Origin: Haloplasma contractile SSD-17B
GTDB lineage: Bacteria; Bacillota_I; Bacilli_A; Haloplasmatales; Haloplasmataceae
DNA: 64,000 bases
NCBI RefSeq assembly: GCF_000215935.2
Contig: NZ_AFNU02000012.1
Location: 1 to 64,000, forward strand
Reading direction: 5' to 3'
Translations under genes and position numbers: made by a program
Part shown: piece by piece, positions 17,427-40,590 of the stretch
How positions within the stretch are numbered: position 1 is the first letter of the stretch
Layout of the letters: the number at the start of each line of letters is the position of its first letter
Notes under the pieces: generated by a model
The model's input: the letters and a program-made list of their open reading frames with translations, nothing else
Told to the model about the DNA's origin: nothing
The model's database searches: none

Positions 17427-18989
17427 ATGACATTTACATTAAGTGTTTTATCCACAACTGATTTACATGGTTCTGTTACATCAAAACGTTATAGTGATAA
17501 CAGTGAAGGCAACTTTGGGCTAGCAAAAATAGCCTCTTTAATAAAAAAAGAACGAAGTAAAAATCCAACACTATTAATTGATAATGGGGATACGATTCAA
17601 GGAAATGCATTAACCTACTATGATGCAAATATCGGTGGTCATAATGACCAAACTCCTATTGCTAAAGTTCTCAACGAACTGAATTATGACGCATGCGTTA
17701 TTGGAAATCACGAATTCAATTATGGACTCGATTATCTTAAACGCTATATGACCAGTTTACAATGTCCTACACTTTCGTGTAATATCAAAAAAAAGACTGG
17801 GGATTTCTTTGCTAGTCCTTATATCATAAAGAATATGGACGACGGACCTAAGATTGCAATTATTGGAGCAACTACTCATTATATCCCAAACTGGGAGAAA
17901 CCAGCGACTATTGAATCCTTAACATTTTTAGATGCCTATCAATCGGTAAAGGATACAGCCAAATATATAAAAGGTGAACACAATGTTGACTGTATGATTG
18001 TGGCCTATCATGGAGGAATTGAAAAGGATTTAAAGACAGGTGAGCCTCTCGCACCACTAACAGGTGAAAATCAAGGGTATAAAATGCTTGAAGAAATTGA
18101 TGAGATTGACATCTTACTAACAGGACACCAGCACAGAATCCTAAATGATGATGATGCGTTTGGAAAAGCCGTTACGCAAGGAGGATCAAATGGTGAGGTT
18201 CTCTCGAAAATCGAAATCGAATTCGAAAAAATTAATGATAAGTGGATGCTTAAGGATAAAAGCACTTGCCTAATGAAATGTGATCACGAAACAATAGATC
18301 AAGGAATTATTAATTTAATCACACCACTCGAAGAAAAAACACAAGTTTGGTTAGATCAAACAATCGGACAAGTTACTAATGGTGAATTACTAATAAATGA
18401 TCCTTTTAAAGCAAGACTAGACAAACATAAAATTGTAACGCTATTGAATCAAATACAAATGGAAATATCAGGTGCTGATCTATCGCTAGTAGCTCTAGGG
18501 AACTATATTAAAGGGTTTCCTAAGAATATTACAATGCGTGACGTAATATCAACTTATATTTACCCGAATACATTATGCGTACTAGAAGTGTCGGGAGCAT
18601 CTTTAAAGGAAGCACTTGAAAAGACATCAGAATATTTTACGGTACATAACGGTGAGATTAAAGTAAGTGACGCCTATCTGTACCCGAAACCTCAACATTA
18701 TAATTATGATTTGTATGATGGAATAACATATACAATCGATTTAAATGAACCGGTTGGCAGACGAATTAAAGATTTAACCTATAAAAACCATTCCTTGGAC
18801 ATGGACCAAATGTATCAAGTCGTAATGAATAATTACCGTGCAAGTGGTGGCGGGGATTATACGATGTTTAAAGAAAGTAACCTAATTAAAGAGATTAATA
18901 CTGATATGGTAGAAGTAATTACAAATTATATTAGGAAACATAAACAAATAGACGTTCCTGATATCAAAAATATTAACATCATCTATTAA
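17427..18989 (+). CDS. Cytosolic metallophosphatase/5'-nucleotidase (UshA/YfkN-type)
   Basis: 520 residues with no signal peptide, so unlike the secreted relatives it should act inside the cell. The metallophosphoesterase domain has all metal motifs: TTDLHG (residues 10-15), NGDTIQGN, IGNHEFNYG, AYHGG and GHQH (~235). A C-terminal 5'-nucleotidase domain (~300-505) follows, with LGNYIKGFP and NYRASGGGDYTMF, the substrate-binding motif. Likely removes phosphate from nucleoside monophosphates or 2',3'-cyclic nucleotides. It faces the phnDCEE operon tail to tail; given that operon's guanine riboswitch, both may belong to purine salvage (inference). A GAGGG site precedes the ATG. Confidence 0.9.
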   Translation: MTFTLSVLSTTDLHGSVTSKRYSDNSEGNFGLAKIASLIKKERSKNPTLLIDNGDTIQGNALTYYDANIGGHNDQTPIAKVLNELNYDACVIGNHEFNYGLDYLKRYMTSLQCPTLSCNIKKKTGDFFASPYIIKNMDDGPKIAIIGATTHYIPNWEKPATIESLTFLDAYQSVKDTAKYIKGEHNVDCMIVAYHGGIEKDLKTGEPLAPLTGENQGYKMLEEIDEIDILLTGHQHRILNDDDAFGKAVTQGGSNGEVLSKIEIEFEKINDKWMLKDKSTCLMKCDHETIDQGIINLITPLEEKTQVWLDQTIGQVTNGELLINDPFKARLDKHKIVTLLNQIQMEISGADLSLVALGNYIKGFPKNITMRDVISTYIYPNTLCVLEVSGASLKEALEKTSEYFTVHNGEIKVSDAYLYPKPQHYNYDLYDGITYTIDLNEPVGRRIKDLTYKNHSLDMDQMYQVVMNNYRASGGGDYTMFKESNLIKEINTDMVEVITNYIRKHKQIDVPDIKNINIIY

Positions 18990-19078: not shown

Positions 19079-19873
19079 CTAAACTAATTTTTTACGTATA
19101 TACGCAGATGTATAGTCAATAATCGTTACTAGGATTATGATGCTTATTAAAATCATCCCTACTTCTTCCCAGTTTCGATTCATTTTTGCAAAGTAAATCA
19201 TTGTTCCGATTCCACCTGCACCCACTAAACCTAAAATGGATGAGGCTCTGACATTTATTTCAAATCGATAGATTGCAAATGATATAAACTCTGGTAATAC
19301 TTGAGGCATTATACCATAAAAGAAGATTTGAACTTTATTCGCTCCACTCGCCTCAAGTGACTCTAATACTTTCATATCAATTGATTCGATTATTTCAGCA
19401 TACAGTTTTCCTAACATTCCAATTGAGTGTATAGATATAGCTAAAGCCCCTGCTAATGGTGTAGGTCCTACAGCAGCAACGAATAATATAGCTAATATTA
19501 CATTTGGAAATGCTCTTATTGCAGCTAACAGCCATTTACCTAAAACTGCTGCGGTAGAGTTGGTAATGTTAACTGCACTTATAAATCCAAAAGGAATCGC
19601 CAAGACAGCTGCTGTTAGAGAACCAGCGAATGCTATATAGAGTGTCTCTAATAATTTCGTTTTTATATCAGGTATTATCGTTGTATCTGGTTCAAAGAAC
19701 CTTGGAATAACATTTTTGAAGTTATTTATTGTCCATTCACTAAATACTCGATTCCAATTTATATCGATACTTAGATATGACCAACCATAGATTAAAATCA
19801 AGATGATTAGAACCAGTATTTCAATAAGTAAAGATTTATTTTTATTTTTTTTAATTGGAAGGTTCGCGTTCAT
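19079..19873 (-). CDS. ABC transporter permease (PhnE family), second copy
   Basis: 264 residues, about six membrane segments. It has the permease coupling loop typical of the family (ESLEASGANKVQIFFYGIMPQVLPEF; key E, A, G and P residues) and the conserved end RASSILGLVGAGGIGTMI. It forms the membrane channel together with the preceding permease. Its ATG overlaps the stop of that gene by one base (TAATG), so translation is coupled. Last gene of phnD-phnC-phnE-phnE. Annotation by family would be phosphonate import; the guanine riboswitch upstream argues for a purine-related substrate. Confidence 0.85.
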   Translation of the reverse strand: MNANLPIKKNKNKSLLIEILVLIILILIYGWSYLSIDINWNRVFSEWTINNFKNVIPRFFEPDTTIIPDIKTKLLETLYIAFAGSLTAAVLAIPFGFISAVNITNSTAAVLGKWLLAAIRAFPNVILAILFVAAVGPTPLAGALAISIHSIGMLGKLYAEIIESIDMKVLESLEASGANKVQIFFYGIMPQVLPEFISFAIYRFEINVRASSILGLVGAGGIGTMIYFAKMNRNWEEVGMILISIIILVTIIDYTSAYIRKKLV

Positions 19874-20802
19874 TATACCAATGCCCTCCTTATTCTATTA
19901 CTAATAACATCTAGTAATATAACTACAACGAATATAACGATTACAATCATCATTACGTCCGGATATTGGAACCATTTCAAACGTTCATTTAACAATTGAC
20001 CAATTCCTCCTGCACCAACAAGTCCTAGAATAATTGATGCACGGACATTGATTTCGAATACGTATAGAGCATACGATACAAAGTTTGGCAAGACTTGTGG
20101 AATAACAGCATACCAAATTGTCTGAATCTTATTAGCACCCGATGCATAAATAGCGTCAATCGGATTCATATCAATTGTTTCTATGCTTTCACTTAATAAT
20201 TTAGCTAATATACCAAAAGAAAAAATAGTCAATGCGATGATTCCTGAAAATGCTCCGATACCGAACAATGCGACGAATACTACGGCTAGGATAATATCAG
20301 GAATAGTTCTTACAATATTCAAAAGGAATTTAATTGACCTATTTAAGTATTTATTAGTTGTCACGTTTGCCGCACCAAGTACACTAAATGGAATTACAGC
20401 TATTGCTGCAAAGGTTGTAGCAATAATCGCCATTTGAAGCGTCTCAGCAAGTTTAGGCCAGACTTTTTCAACATAATTTAGATTTGGTGGCATAAATTTA
20501 CCAAACACCCTAGCCATGTCATTAAGTATATTAGTATCAAGGGTAGGTATATTAATATAAAAAGGCAGTGCCTCAATATCAATTTGAACATCTGTTATTA
20601 AATCTGATAACCCTGTCTCAATAATACTAATTAAATAAAAGATAGCAACGACTAAAAAAGATACTAAAATCACTAACTTTTTCCCCGGAGAATTAACACC
20701 TCTAGGAACTCCATCTGATGTAAACTCAAAAAATTTATACGGCTCTGACTCTTTAATGTTATCTTTTATTAACTTTACTTTATCATTTATTTTGCTCATC
20801 AT
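19873..20802 (-). CDS. ABC transporter permease (PhnE family), first copy
   Basis: 309 residues. A ~60-residue cytosolic N-terminal extension and one early membrane segment are followed by the permease core with DAIYASGANKIQTIWYAVIP (coupling loop) and RASIILGLVGAGGIG. It overlaps the end of the phnC-like ATPase gene by 20 bases and the next permease by one base, so the three are tightly coupled. Two different PhnE-type subunits presumably make a heterodimeric channel. Substrate inferred only from regulation. Confidence 0.87.
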   Translation of the reverse strand: MMSKINDKVKLIKDNIKESEPYKFFEFTSDGVPRGVNSPGKKLVILVSFLVVAIFYLISIIETGLSDLITDVQIDIEALPFYINIPTLDTNILNDMARVFGKFMPPNLNYVEKVWPKLAETLQMAIIATTFAAIAVIPFSVLGAANVTTNKYLNRSIKFLLNIVRTIPDIILAVVFVALFGIGAFSGIIALTIFSFGILAKLLSESIETIDMNPIDAIYASGANKIQTIWYAVIPQVLPNFVSYALYVFEINVRASIILGLVGAGGIGQLLNERLKWFQYPDVMMIVIVIFVVVILLDVISNRIRRALV

Positions 20803-21568
20803 CTATTCCCCCACGAATGTCTTCCGCACGAATAGAACGACCATAAATCTCTTCAAATGTTGCTTCTGTTACATTTTTAGCAGAGCCATCAAACACAACT
20901 TTTCCATCTCTCATACCAATGATTCGATCTGCATATTCCATCGCCATATCAATAAAATGCAGATTAACAATTGTTGTAATATGATCTTCACGGTTAATCT
21001 TCTTTAAATCTTTCATAACTTGATGTGAAGTCGGTGGATCTAAACTAGCAACCGGTTCATCTGCTAGTATAATATTAGGTTTTTGCGATAAAACTCTTGC
21101 AATACTGACACGCTGTTGTTGTCCACCACTTAATTGGTCGGCTCTTATATAAATTTTGTCTTCAATACCCAAACGTTGTAAACTTTCATAGGCTAATTTA
21201 CGGTCTTCTTTTGAGAATCGATTTAAAATACTTTTTATCGTACTCGTATAAGCTAAACGACCTGCTAGTACATTCTTAATAACAGTAGATCGCTTAACAA
21301 GATTATAGTCCTGAAAAATCATACCTATTTTCTTTCTTAAACCACGTAACTTCTTGTTTTTTAGACTTAAAATATCTTGACCTTCAATTAATAACTCTCC
21401 ATCTGTAGGTGTTACTATACGATTCATACTTCTTATTAATGTAGATTTCCCCGCGCCTGAAAGACCTACAACAACCACAAACTCACCCTTATTAATTTTT
21501 AAATCTACGTTCTTAAGCGCTTCTACACCATTGGGATACGTAAGTGATACATTTTTAAACTCAATCAT
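20783..21568 (-). CDS. ABC transporter ATP-binding protein (PhnC family)
   Basis: 261 residues. Walker A GLSGAGKST (residues ~35-43), Q-loop MIFQDYNLV, signature LSGGQQQRVSIARVL, Walker B ILADEPVASLD and the switch His in VNLHFIDMA. These match the PhnC subfamily (ASLDPPTSHQVM after Walker B). It powers the two PhnE-type permeases. The ATG follows AAGGAGG. Ends with TGA, confirming TGA as stop here. It lies 85 bases downstream of the binding-protein gene. Confidence 0.9.
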   Translation of the reverse strand: MIEFKNVSLTYPNGVEALKNVDLKINKGEFVVVVGLSGAGKSTLIRSMNRIVTPTDGELLIEGQDILSLKNKKLRGLRKKIGMIFQDYNLVKRSTVIKNVLAGRLAYTSTIKSILNRFSKEDRKLAYESLQRLGIEDKIYIRADQLSGGQQQRVSIARVLSQKPNIILADEPVASLDPPTSHQVMKDLKKINREDHITTIVNLHFIDMAMEYADRIIGMRDGKVVFDGSAKNVTEATFEEIYGRSIRAEDIRGGIDDEQNK

Positions 21569-21653: not shown

Positions 21654-22571
21654 TTAATTACCTAAATTAATAGAATCTTTAAATTTATTATAAGTGCTTC
21701 TTACAACATCATATTCACTGTCTTCTGCTAAGGCAATTGCATCCCAGCTATATACATCTTTCATAATTGCTAACATGTCTTCGTTAGCATTAAATCCATA
21801 GAATGCTTCTCTAATTTCTTGAACCAATTCATCATCTAATTCCTTTGTAACCGATATTGTATCGTTTGGAATAGGATCCGTGTATCCAATTACTTTTGTA
21901 TCAGTCATGATATTAGGATAATCTTCTGAAACAAGAACACGTGCATCATCAAATGTAGTGGCAACATCTGCATTACCTTCCATTACAGCGATGATTGAAT
22001 TATCATGAGAACCAGATTCTACTGTATCTGAGAAGAAATCAGTTGTAGGGTCCGTCACATCACTATATAAGTCTATAATTTGAGATGCAGGGAATAAAAA
22101 TCCACTTGTAGACGTTGCATCTCCATATGCCCATACTTTACCTCTTAAATCATCCATCGTATCTATTCCTGAGTCAGTTCTTACAAGGTATTGACCAACA
22201 TATGAACCACTTCCGTAACGTTCTGATTTTAAGATTACTTCAACACCATATTCTTCATTAGCTACTACATATGCAAATGAAGGAACAAATCCAATTTGTA
22301 CTTCATTTGTACCCATTGCCTCAACTAATGCATTGTAGTTAGTCATTACTCTACCTTCAACTTCAATATCTAAACGCTGAGATAATAGTTCTGCTAATGG
22401 TTCAACTGTATCTGCAATTGTGTCTGAGTTTGATGATGGAACAAATCCCATTACTAACTTTTCTGGTCTGTTATCATCCGCCCCTGTATTTGCATCATCC
22501 TTCTTTGATGTACATGCCCCTAATCCTAATGCAAGAACTGTTACTAAAAGTACACTAAATAATTTTTTCAT
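21654..22571 (-). CDS. PhnD-family solute-binding lipoprotein
   Basis: 305 residues. A lipoprotein signal ends at LGAC (Cys ~20), placing it on the outer face of the membrane. The mature part is a PhnD-type binding protein: LVMGFVPSSN at the start, GDATSTSGFLFP (the S-T-S motif that in phosphonate-binding relatives contacts the anionic group) and SGSHDNSIIAV. First gene of phnD-C-E-E, with GAGGAGG before the ATG. The family label is phosphonate/phosphite uptake, but a guanine-sensing riboswitch and terminator sit ~240 bases upstream, so a purine, nucleoside or similar ligand should be considered. Confidence 0.85.
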   Translation of the reverse strand: MKKLFSVLLVTVLALGLGACTSKKDDANTGADDNRPEKLVMGFVPSSNSDTIADTVEPLAELLSQRLDIEVEGRVMTNYNALVEAMGTNEVQIGFVPSFAYVVANEEYGVEVILKSERYGSGSYVGQYLVRTDSGIDTMDDLRGKVWAYGDATSTSGFLFPASQIIDLYSDVTDPTTDFFSDTVESGSHDNSIIAVMEGNADVATTFDDARVLVSEDYPNIMTDTKVIGYTDPIPNDTISVTKELDDELVQEIREAFYGFNANEDMLAIMKDVYSWDAIALAEDSEYDVVRSTYNKFKDSINLGN

Positions 22572-22801: not shown

Positions 22802-22829
22802 AAAAAAAGAGCACCCGGAAGGAATGCTC
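22802..22829 (-). terminator. Riboswitch-controlled terminator in the phnDCEE leader
   Basis: On the minus strand GAGCATTC/GGGTGCTC (G-U pairs allowed) is followed by TTTTTTT. Its 5' arm, GCATTC, can instead pair with GAATGT, which contains the 3' strand of the aptamer P1 helix, and GGAACCT can pair with AGGTTTT just before it, giving a mutually exclusive antiterminator. Confidence 0.85.
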
Positions 22830-22874
22830 TACTAAAAACCTGACTAAAAATGAATATGAAGGTTCCATATCCAC

Positions 22875-22943
22875 ATTCGTAGTCCTAAAATTTACGGTTT
22901 TAGGGTAGAGACTTTCGATCCTTATCATCGACGATATACGAAT
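22875..22943 (-). ncRNA. Purine riboswitch aptamer, guanine class (C at the discriminator position)
   Basis: Read on the minus strand: P1 ATTCGTA/TACGAAT (7 perfect pairs); P2 TCGAT/ATCGA closing loop L2 GATAAGG; J2/3 AAGTCTCTACC (consensus AAGTTTCTACC, the only change being at the flipped-out U48); P3 CCTAAAA/TTTTAGG closing L3 CCGTAAA; J3/1 GAC before the P1 3' strand. All L2-L3 kissing and binding-pocket positions are kept, and the C in GAC (position 74) selects guanine/hypoxanthine rather than adenine. A terminator follows at 22802-22829, giving an OFF switch. The downstream gene is phnD. Confidence 0.93.
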
Positions 22944-23277
22944 ATTAACGATATTTAATTGTTGTCACTTCTTAATCAACTAATATTAAAAGTAATCGTC
23001 TATATAATAACATGAAATGACAAAAAAGCACAATACATTATTAAAAAAATTTCTTAAAAATGAATTTGACTATTAATGCTAAGGTAAGAAAGATGTTTAA
23101 TAAATAAGTAACAAGTTTTATAGTTAGTCTGAAAACAACTAACTCCTATGTAACATCTATTAAGGACGACCTGAATCATACTAACTTATTGAGTGAAATA
23201 CTGGTAAGTATCTATGAATACAAAAATAGAATTTGCACTCGATATAGCACAAATTCTAAATTATTTGATTATAGATT
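22944..23277. other. Intergenic region upstream of the riboswitch
   Basis: Apart from the probable promoter close to the aptamer, this AT-rich stretch shows no gene or structured element that I recognise. Confidence 0.4.
22952..22979 (-). promoter_or_regulatory. Probable promoter of the riboswitch-phnDCEE transcript
   Basis: -35 TTGATT (22974-22979), 16-base spacer, -10 TAAATA (22952-22957), placing the start just before the aptamer. Confidence 0.45.
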
Positions 23278-37173: not shown

Positions 37174-38679
37174 TTAAGCCACCTCCTCAGTAGACTCAAG
37201 ACTTGTATAATGATCGTTTGCTTTACTTGCAGCAATTGATAAAATTATGATTGTAATAACGACACCCCATCCAAATATAAGAAGAGCAAGCTTCGGATAA
37301 TTTCCATAAGGACTTTTGATTTCATTATAAATATTCACCGCTAGCATAATCGTTAGGACTGTAGGCGTCACATACCTAATTAACACATCCCACCATAATC
37401 CTATTGAATAAATAGAAACAGAGTTTGTATGCTTACGTAATACTTTAGTTGAAAAGAACCAACCGACCACAATGCACTCGAGTAGTCCAATCACAATTAA
37501 TCCATATGCATTAATGAATGCATCTACGATGTCTAGGAAGTAAAGGCCTGCTCCTGTTGAGTATAAAACACTAATTGAATAACCTAATACACTTACAATG
37601 GTCACGACCTTTTTTCTACTTACGTTTGTTTTATCTTTTACTGCTGCTACGAACGCTTCTGTTAACGATACGCACGAGGTAATTCCCGCAAATACTAAAG
37701 CTGAAAAGAATAAAGCAGCAAAGACACTTCCAAGTCCACCCATGAGTGAGAATACCTTTGGAAACACAACAAAGGCTAACCCAATACTTTGAGTGGCTAC
37801 TTCATCCACAGGTACACCTTGACTAACAGCCATGAATCCAAGGATTGCAAATACACCGATCGCAGTTAAGAATTCGAAACCACTATTTGCAAATGCAGTC
37901 ATCAAGGCACTGTTATTTAAGTCGGACTTCTTAGGTAGATAACTAGAGTAGGTGATCATGATTCCCATTCCGATACTTAATGAATAGAAAACTTGTCCAT
38001 ATGCATCCATCCACACACCAGGTTCTAACACCTTGTTCCAATCAGGGGTAAATAATTTGTTAAGTCCTACTGCCGCTCCTGGTAACGTAACACCACGCAC
38101 TACTATAATTAAAATAATTATAATTAATAGAGGCAATAATACTTTGTTGATTCGCTCAATTCCTTTTGAAACACCCTTAAAACAGATAAACCAGTTTAAA
38201 AGCCATAATACTGTTATTCCAAACAAGATCGTCCACTGTATACTACCCAAATCAAATGGTCCTGTAGATAATTTTAAGAAATCATTGAAAAAGTAGTTAT
38301 TTGTATCCTCTCCCCATGCTTGGTTAAACGATAAGTAAACATAATTCAAAGCCCAACTTAAAATCATCGTATAATAGGTTAAGATTACAAATGATGTTAT
38401 ACTTGGCCACCAACCTAGCCATTCCCATTTTTTATTCATTCGAAAATATGACAGAGGTGCTGAACCTCTCATTTTATGTCCAATACTATATTCTAGTAAA
38501 AGTAACGGAATACCTGTTGTGAAGATTGCTATAAAGTATGGAACTAAAAAAGCTCCACCACCATTTGAATACAACAAATACGGAAAGCGCCATATGTTCC
38601 CAAGTCCTACCGCAGACCCTACTGCAGCAAGTATAAATCCCATCTTTGATCCCCATTGTTCTCGTTTTTGCTCTGCCAT
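37174..38679 (-). CDS. metP: Sodium-dependent amino-acid transporter (NSS/SNF family, MetP-like)
   Basis: 501 residues, 12 membrane segments. Signature near the N-terminus: WGSKMGFILAAVGSAVGLGN IWRFPYL (Na+/substrate site, LeuT family), then GGGAFLVPYF and the long GITSCVSLTEAFVA segment. Imports an amino acid with Na+. The leader is a T-box whose best-placed specifier is AUC (Ile); the MetS-like partner downstream instead suggests methionine/alanine. ATG 38679 is nine bases from AAGGAG (the GTG one codon earlier is less likely). First gene of the transporter/small-subunit pair. Confidence 0.88.
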   Translation of the reverse strand: MAEQKREQWGSKMGFILAAVGSAVGLGNIWRFPYLLYSNGGGAFLVPYFIAIFTTGIPLLLLEYSIGHKMRGSAPLSYFRMNKKWEWLGWWPSITSFVILTYYTMILSWALNYVYLSFNQAWGEDTNNYFFNDFLKLSTGPFDLGSIQWTILFGITVLWLLNWFICFKGVSKGIERINKVLLPLLIIIILIIVVRGVTLPGAAVGLNKLFTPDWNKVLEPGVWMDAYGQVFYSLSIGMGIMITYSSYLPKKSDLNNSALMTAFANSGFEFLTAIGVFAILGFMAVSQGVPVDEVATQSIGLAFVVFPKVFSLMGGLGSVFAALFFSALVFAGITSCVSLTEAFVAAVKDKTNVSRKKVVTIVSVLGYSISVLYSTGAGLYFLDIVDAFINAYGLIVIGLLECIVVGWFFSTKVLRKHTNSVSIYSIGLWWDVLIRYVTPTVLTIMLAVNIYNEIKSPYGNYPKLALLIFGWGVVITIIILSIAASKANDHYTSLESTEEVA

Positions 38680-38739
38680 CACTACCTACTCCTTTTATAT
38701 TATTATTTTTATTATGAATAATCTGGTTCTAAGAGAAAT

Positions 38740-38794
38740 AAAAAAATCTCCCATCTCTAACGCATAATTCACTTATGCACTAGAGACGAAAGAT
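38740..38794 (-). terminator. T-box terminator in the transporter leader
   Basis: Long minus-strand hairpin ATCTTTCGTCTCTA...TAGAGATGGGAGAT with inner stem GCATAA/TTATGC, then TTTTTTT; directly after the T-box sequence. Confidence 0.88.
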
Positions 38795-39025
38795 TTTTCG
38801 TGGTACCACTCTATTTTACAACCCACTTACATAGATTGCCTCATCAGGTCAAAATTAACCCTAGCCTTTTTAACGGGAGCAACCGATTTTATTTACATGT
38901 ACAAACATTCAATAAAATAGTTCAGGAGTGATCATTATATACTACATTAATACCGATTCACAGTAACACGGCTCCCTGAGATTAATGGCTTAGTATTTTT
39001 GTCTCCGTCGACACTTTTAAGTTTT
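38740..39025 (-). ncRNA. T-box riboswitch upstream of the NSS transporter
   Basis: Carries the T-box core AGAGTGGTACCACG (38799-38812) followed by the terminator. In Stem I the base pairs GGAG/CTCC and ATACTA/TAGTAT flank an internal loop whose 3' side reads ATAATGATCA. By comparison with the asnA T-box (AAC then A then helix), the specifier is ATC (38930-38932), the Ile codon. An ATG three bases earlier would be the Met reading but leaves an unusually long gap to the helix. Uncharged tRNA should permit readthrough into the transporter. Confidence 0.9.
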
Positions 39026-39305: not shown

Positions 39306-40304
39306 CTATAGTAAGTGAATATTTTTTTCTTTACATTCTTTAATCATTGATTTAGGCCATACAGAACTCTGCACTTCTCCAATATGTGCTTTTTCTAGGA
39401 AATACATACAAAGTCGTGATTGACCTATTCCTCCCCCGATCGTAAGCGGAAGAACATCATTTACAATTGCTTGATGGTATTCTAGATTCAGTCTGTCTAG
39501 TGTATTTGTTTCTTCTAATTGTTTTAGTAACGATTCTTTATCCACACGAATCCCCATAGATGATAGTTCAAAAGCTGTTTCTGAAACAGGATTGTATAAT
39601 AAAATATCACCGTTCAGCTCCCAATCATCATAGTCAGGTGATCTACCGTCGTGAGGTTTCCCTGATAATAGTTTTTTTCCAATTTTAAATATAAAGACTG
39701 CTTTATATTTCTTGCAGATCTCATGCTCTCTCTGTTTGCTAGTCAGATCAGGATATTGATTTTCAAGTTCTTGAGAGGATATAAAGAATATTGTTTCAGG
39801 TAATTTATGACTTAATACTGGGAACTCATCAACAATATATTCGTCCGTAATTTTAAGTACTTTATATATTCTTTCTACAACTTCTTTTAGTTTTAATTCA
39901 TTTCGATCCGATTGTCCAATAACACGTTCCCAGTCCCATTGATCAACATAGTATGAATGTATATAATCAGGTTCTTCATCTTTTCTAATTGCATTCATAT
40001 CTGTATAAATTCCTGCTTTTTCTTTAATATTGTATTTATACAGCGCCATCCTTTTCCATTTTGCAAGAGACTGAACGATTTGTACCTCATTATTATTAAA
40101 TACTGAAAACGATACGGGTTTTTCTGTTCCATTTAAATTATCATTCAGACCCGTTTCCGGTTGAACAAAAAGTGGTGCTGAAATACGAGTTAGATTAAGT
40201 TCATATGCCAGCTGTCGCTCAAAGAAATCCTTTAGTTTTTTTATTGCTTTTTGTGTTTGAAATAAGGATAATTTATTAACATATGTATCCATATGTTCAA
40301 TCAT
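39306..40304 (-). CDS. asnA: Aspartate-ammonia ligase (asparagine synthetase A)
   Basis: 332 residues, the usual AsnA length. Class II aminoacyl-tRNA-synthetase-like fold: LTRISAPLFV near residue 39, KWKRMALYKYNI, YTDMNAIRKDEEPDYIHSYYVDQWDWE (around 95-122), then GKPHDGRSPDYDDWELNGD and the C-terminal motif GGGIGQSRLCMYFL that binds ATP. It makes asparagine from aspartate, ammonia and ATP. ATG at 40304 is best spaced from AGAGG. Controlled by an Asn T-box directly upstream, which fits the product. Confidence 0.96.
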   Translation of the reverse strand: MIEHMDTYVNKLSLFQTQKAIKKLKDFFERQLAYELNLTRISAPLFVQPETGLNDNLNGTEKPVSFSVFNNNEVQIVQSLAKWKRMALYKYNIKEKAGIYTDMNAIRKDEEPDYIHSYYVDQWDWERVIGQSDRNELKLKEVVERIYKVLKITDEYIVDEFPVLSHKLPETIFFISSQELENQYPDLTSKQREHEICKKYKAVFIFKIGKKLLSGKPHDGRSPDYDDWELNGDILLYNPVSETAFELSSMGIRVDKESLLKQLEETNTLDRLNLEYHQAIVNDVLPLTIGGGIGQSRLCMYFLEKAHIGEVQSSVWPKSMIKECKEKNIHLL

Positions 40305-40320
40305 AATAGTCACCTCTCTA

Positions 40321-40590
40321 TAAAAAAACAGCCTTCTTTTCGTCTTTTTTAGGGACGAATGGCTGTAAAATCCGCGGTACCACCCTAGTTGTCAGTGATG
40401 ACCACTTAAGCAAATCCTTTTAACGGTGGATACCGTCTAATTCTACTATGAATGATTTCAATTCGATTAGAAACTCAGAGGTGTTCTTCGCTCTCAAATC
40501 TGAATTAGGCTCTCATCCTCCCTAACTTGCTTTGTCGACCATTAAGAGTTACTCTCCTCTTCACTGTTTTTAGTTTTATTAATTTAGTTT
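40321..40590 (-). ncRNA. Asn-specific T-box riboswitch upstream of asnA
   Basis: T-box core AGGGTGGTACCGCG (40373-40386), terminator hairpin ACAGCC...GGCTGT with TTTTTTT (40322-40366), and Stem I with base AGAGG/CCTCT. The specifier loop reads CGAAGAACA on its 3' side, giving AAC (40483-40485), an Asn codon, followed by A and the helix. Matches the downstream gene, so the assignment is firm. Confidence 0.94.

Follow-up and report, generated by a model that had tools for sequence, protein, structure and literature searches.

A guanine-type riboswitch upstream of a phnDCEE operon in Haloplasma contractile and its predicted role in purine nucleotide uptake

The genome of Haloplasma contractile SSD-17B encodes a guanine-type riboswitch directly upstream of a phnD-phnC-phnE-phnE transporter operon. 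Both lie on the minus strand of the window, the 64,000-nucleotide stretch analyzed here (positions 1 to 64,000 of contig NZ_AFNU02000012.1). Based on sequence, we predict that the PhnDCEE transporter probably imports purine nucleotides (nucleoside monophosphates or close relatives), is turned off by guanine, and has as its partner a 5′-nucleotidase that would free nucleoside and phosphate inside the cell.

The riboswitch and the operon it precedes

An Rfam covariance search found exactly one purine riboswitch in the window, a full-length match to RF00167 at 22860..22961 on the minus strand (77.6 bits, E 3.9e-12; the gathering score is 37 bits). It forms the three-helix aptamer, with the core GUAUA...GUCUCUACC...ACCGUAAAU...GACUACGAA. 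The specificity base is C (22882, minus strand) and the equivalent of U51 is U (22907, minus strand), so the aptamer is of the guanine type. J2/3 reads UCU instead of the usual UUU, as it does in most of the other purine aptamers in this genome. The riboswitch is typical of its class. Guanine is its predicted ligand, and we predict that it controls expression of the genes downstream.

The aptamer is followed by an intrinsic terminator, a stem-loop of nine pairs (22830-22808, minus strand) and then a T run, identified by a terminator scan and by folding. It is among the two terminator-like sites in the scanned region, where shuffled sequences gave 0.3. The state with aptamer and terminator has a computed energy of -33.8 kcal/mol. 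If the terminator lacks its 3′ arm, CUCUAC of J2/3 (22910-22905) pairs with GUAGAG (22832-22827) and P1 is broken; with a hairpin at 22884-22842, this computed fold makes up a putative antiterminator (22827..22910, minus strand). GUAGAG shares nucleotides with the 5′ arm of the terminator, giving two mutually exclusive states by computation. Upstream of the aptamer there is a possible extended -10 element (TGT TATTAT, 23004..23009, minus strand) that was read by eye and missed by the promoter scan.

The operon begins with phnD (21654..22571, minus strand), encoding a 305 amino acid lipoprotein that appears to be the solute-binding protein (PF12974, 1.2e-62; TIGR01098 above cut-off). It continues on the same strand with an ATPase gene, phnC (20783..21568; TIGR02315, 358 bits against a cut-off of 266), and two permease genes, phnE1 (19873..20802) and phnE2 (19079..19873), with 282 and 281 bits to TIGR01097 (cut-off 217). 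PhnC and both PhnE proteins thus score as members of the phosphonate-importer equivalogs; PhnD reaches 157 bits with the PhnD equivalog model, TIGR03431, against a cut-off of 261. The transporter is in the PhnT family and outside the phosphonate equivalog by the tests made here.

The start of phnD (22571) is about 230 nucleotides past the terminator. There is no open reading frame of at least 80 amino acids between them, and a simple promoter scan found no sigma-70-like match on the minus strand in this gap. A first-pass annotation of this DNA had described a guanine-class aptamer with a terminator and a matching antiterminator directly in front of the operon, a link that a separate promoter ahead of phnD would have broken; its account agrees with our searches at each of these points. 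The gap is long, so there may be an internal promoter beyond the reach of a simple scan.

A search of the genome found six purine aptamers, including the one in the window. The other five precede xpt-guaA, a Bmp-type nucleoside ATP-binding cassette (ABC) transporter, an NCS2 permease, guaB, and a second ABC operon, and the set resembles a regulon for purine supply. The second ABC operon (aptamer at G000:C1:264859-264960, plus strand; genes at L007:2503-8976) encodes a MalK-like ATPase, two permeases, an SBP_bac_8 protein, and, as its final gene, a lipoprotein with a staphylococcal-nuclease domain. It is less directly tied to its aptamer than the operon in the window, because the gap between terminator and gene is long and has promoter-like matches inside it. 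The nuclease lipoprotein suggests that nucleic acids are a food source for the organism, and it fits nucleic-acid scavenging. The genome contains a second PhnD-type gene (G000:C3:89324-90061, minus strand; L015:4731-7152) accompanied by separate ATPase and permease genes. We ruled it out as a near paralogue; it is about 22% identical, has different motifs, and lacks an aptamer.

A probable phosphorylated ligand and a putative 5′-nucleotidase partner

The gene that converges on the end of the operon (17427..18989, plus strand) is separated from phnE2 (end at 19079) by 89 bp, and encodes an enzyme of the 5′-nucleotidase family, as the first-pass annotation had also noted. It contains a metallophosphatase domain (PF00149) and a 5_nucleotid_C domain (PF02872), which place it in the UshA/YfkN/CD73 superfamily. 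The metal ligands D12, H14, D52, N94, H95, H195, H234, and H236 are invariant in seven orthologues. The closest solved structures are 5′-nucleotidases, with nucleoside-binding relatives. As read from the sequence, there is no hydrophobic N-terminal segment ahead of the first catalytic strand and no evident signal peptide, and we infer that the enzyme is cytosolic.

Neighborhood comparison found the nucleotidase orthologue next to phnDCEE in many other genomes. It adjoins the operon in 44 of 80 Bacillaceae loci (L054-L133), 43 times downstream on the same strand, and it is divergent from the operon in six of seven close relatives in the class of the window organism. About 15 further loci have it beside phnDCEE. 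The same pair of genes in three arrangements argues for a functional link between them. At some loci that lack the nucleotidase, genes for phosphatases of the haloacid dehalogenase (HAD) type are beside phnDCEE (identified by eye). A yfkN-like gene beside a phn cluster was reported for two genomes in a 2016 paper on Bacillus coahuilensis, which left its role open (PMC4744853).

The binding protein appears suited to a phosphorylated compound. Residues R118, Y124, S154, G157, H189, D209, R211, N236, D237, and T238 of the PhnD pocket are invariant in 55 sequences, and S156 is conserved in 54 of them. In GpxB, the binding protein of another PhnT-family importer, Ser, Tyr, and His hold the phosphate of glycerol-1-phosphate (PMC12718374). 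The structure model of the window PhnD (predicted local distance difference test score 89) has phosphite and phosphonate binders as its nearest folds, and a protein of this fold, XAC2383, was solved with ATP. Two motifs, TFDDxR and PNDTIS, are conserved in the clade of PhnD proteins linked to the nucleotidase or to the aptamer.

Regulation in relatives also points to phosphorus. Direct repeats resembling a PhoP box (TTWACA, period 11) occur upstream of phnD at 12 of the 80 Bacillaceae loci with a score of at least 16, where dinucleotide shuffling predicts 0.25; the loci are related, so these are not independent events, and the box model follows the B. subtilis consensus. These repeats suggest that the solute probably bears phosphorus. 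We also considered PurR boxes upstream of Bacillaceae phnD. About 15 loci have CCGAAY near -155, but the box that should pair with it is weak, and we treat these elements as suggestive, not as evidence.

The simplest substrate that fits control by phosphate in one lineage and by guanine in two others, a nucleotidase neighbor, and a phosphate pocket is a purine nucleotide. In the mechanism that we propose, plentiful guanine would cause the riboswitch to end transcription before phnDCEE, and scarce guanine would allow the antiterminator to form and the importer to be made. PhnD may grip the phosphate through the conserved Ser-Thr-Ser-Gly, His, and Tyr, and hold the remainder of the nucleotide through the clade-specific TFDDxR and PNDTIS motifs. 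The neighboring 5′-nucleotidase would then split the nucleotide inside the cell into phosphate and a nucleoside, from which guanine could be made, closing the regulatory loop.

Recurrence of the pairing and alternative substrates

The PhnD proteins closest to that of the window (51-69% identity) come from Bacillaceae and near relatives. The nearest within its own class are about 40-45% identical; no close PhnD was found in its own family and no relatives were found on viral contigs. A survey for purine aptamers before PhnD genes, as the first-pass annotation had suggested, found the pairing again in three genomes from a different family of the class (G048, G550, and G551), each with an RF00167 aptamer directly upstream of a homologous phnDCEE operon (51.8, 61.6, and 56.0 bits, respectively). 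Whole-genome searches found no other purine aptamer in any of the three, within the sequence at hand, since two of the genomes are incomplete (77 and 87%). The aptamers of G550 and G551 (L163:1382-1480 and L167:1356-1454) have an L3 loop shorter than the usual CCGUAAA. In the PhnD tree, the window protein groups with Bacillaceae copies (support 0.91) and the PhnD proteins of G048, G550, and G551 are in a distant clade, so the aptamer-phnDCEE pairing arose at least twice.

Several observations weigh against the import of purine nucleotides under guanine control. Purine aptamers are absent from all 80 Bacillaceae loci, so the switch is apparently not ancestral to this PhnD group. In G048, G550, and G551, a search for the nucleotidase orthologue gave only weak matches to larger proteins; those organisms may therefore use the nucleotide directly, or their transporter may have a different ligand. 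Thiamine diphosphate is the ligand of p37/Cypl, relatives of PhnD in Mollicutes (PMC6609329), and the PhnD family is thus versatile. The antiterminator is a computed fold, which is not proof of switching. Among the routes of phosphonate use and phosphite oxidation, the search covered PhnJ and PhnX only.

The family annotation, the nearest folds, and the PhoP-box-like repeats in relatives would all suit an ordinary importer of phosphonate, phosphite, or phosphate, with the guanine switch as a regulatory accident or a link to phosphate economy. We consider this improbable. PhnJ is absent from the window genome, from eight relatives in its class, and from 15 of the 19 Bacillaceae tested. A true PhnX is missing from the same nine genomes (the window genome has matches below the cut-off only), and one genome of 28 has PhnX above the cut-off. 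Judged by these two proteins, the window importer does not keep company with carbon-phosphorus lyase or phosphonatase. We inspected the PhnJ neighborhoods of four Bacillaceae genomes and the PhnX neighborhood of one. Two of the PhnJ regions and the PhnWX region encode their own PhnD, which is just 22-23% identical to the window protein and has neither TFDDxR nor PNDTIS; the remaining two PhnJ regions yielded no PhnD within the stretch examined. The score below the PhnD equivalog cut-off, and the recurrence of the pairing in a second family with the sole purine aptamer of each genome, also speak against such an importer. B. coahuilensis strains, one of which has the phn cluster, grew on DNA and not on 2-aminoethylphosphonate as phosphorus source (PMC4744853). 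Phosphonate is therefore an unlikely substrate of the window transporter.

The first-pass annotation had argued that the transporter brings in a purine, nucleoside, or purine precursor and not phosphonate. The link to purines and the departure from phosphonate were borne out by the directness of the switch, the absence of PhnJ and true PhnX, and the different PhnD proteins of phosphonate-linked clusters; the kind of substrate that it named was not. Guanine riboswitches often govern base and nucleoside transporters, two others in this genome precede a Bmp-type nucleoside ABC transporter and an NCS2 permease, and G048, G550, and G551 lack the nucleotidase orthologue, all of which would suit a purine base or nucleoside without phosphate. 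However, the phosphate-binding residues of PhnD are nearly invariant, and the genome already has those two purine importers under guanine switches. The phosphate pocket, the 5′-nucleotidase partner, and the PhoP-box-like repeats in Bacillaceae favor a ligand that carries phosphate. A purine nucleotide is thus a better fit than a free base or nucleoside, and to the latter two we give little credence. A phosphorylated compound other than a nucleotide (a sugar phosphate, glycerophosphate, or thiamine phosphate, for example), with the guanine switch reporting the general state of purines or phosphate, seems rather unlikely. PhnD family members do bind glycerol-1-phosphate and, in Mycoplasma, thiamine diphosphate, and some relatives have HAD-type phosphatases, identified by eye, in place of the nucleotidase beside phnDCEE. 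Yet the usual partner is a 5′-nucleotidase with nucleoside-binding relatives, and the sole purine aptamer of three genomes sits on phnDCEE.

A purine nucleotide remains the substrate that we favor for the window transporter. More tentatively, the widespread PhnDCEE clade of Bacillaceae and the window class may serve specifically to import intact nucleotides, with phosphate or guanine-riboswitch control depending on lineage and often coupled to an intracellular 5′-nucleotidase.

The window also contains two T-box leaders on the minus strand, one (40348-40573) upstream of an asparagine-synthetase-like gene (39306-40313) and one (38779-39020) upstream of a sodium-dependent transporter gene (37174-38682), with both genes identified by eye.

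Comparison with known systems

We did not find a guanine or purine switch on a phnD-type transporter in the open-access papers searched, though such a case may have been described elsewhere. The main text of a 2013 survey of riboswitch regulons does not name phn genes (PMC3766115). The ykkC subtype 2d association called phn_DUF6 was rejected as a known case, as it involves a different transporter.

The general view is that intact nucleotides do not cross bacterial membranes, and extracellular nucleotides are therefore thought to be dephosphorylated before uptake (PMC8289736). Mycoplasma mycoides was reported to take up whole deoxymononucleotides, an activity to which no gene was assigned (PMC6609329). 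If our prediction is true, the PhnDCEE clade would be a candidate for this activity, and a named operon with two types of regulation and a partner enzyme would make the question of intact-nucleotide uptake testable. Many “phosphonate” transporter annotations would also need correction, with consequences for estimates of phosphonate use.

Several characterized systems share parts of this arrangement. The p37/Cypl protein of Mycoplasma hyorhinis is a PhnD-like Mollicute lipoprotein for a phosphorylated compound, with thiamine as ligand (PMC6609329). GpxBCD, the glycerol-1-phosphate importer of marine bacteria, is likewise a PhnT-family transporter for a phosphate ester and not a phosphonate, and the pocket of GpxB is similar to that of the window PhnD by residue type (about 20% identity). 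Unlike for the window system, no guanine switch is mentioned in the part of the report consulted (PMC12718374). The phnCDE1E2 cluster of B. coahuilensis m2-6, with its yfkN-like gene, has the same pairing of transporter and nucleotidase family as the window; the metabolic model of that strain has no phosphonate-use genes except a phnY-like match, and, unlike here, no riboswitch is mentioned in the part of the report consulted (PMC4744853). The PhnCDE phosphonate importer (TC 3.A.1.9), including E. coli PhnD, has the same PhnC and PhnE equivalogs, fold, and phosphate-binding residues, whereas the window PhnD is below the equivalog cut-off and the window transporter has a nucleotidase partner in a genome without PhnJ or true PhnX. 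The riboswitch resembles that of B. subtilis xpt-pbuX (RF00167), with the same aptamer architecture, C as specificity base, and a terminator-type off switch, but the one in the window precedes, and is predicted to control, a PhnDCEE importer.
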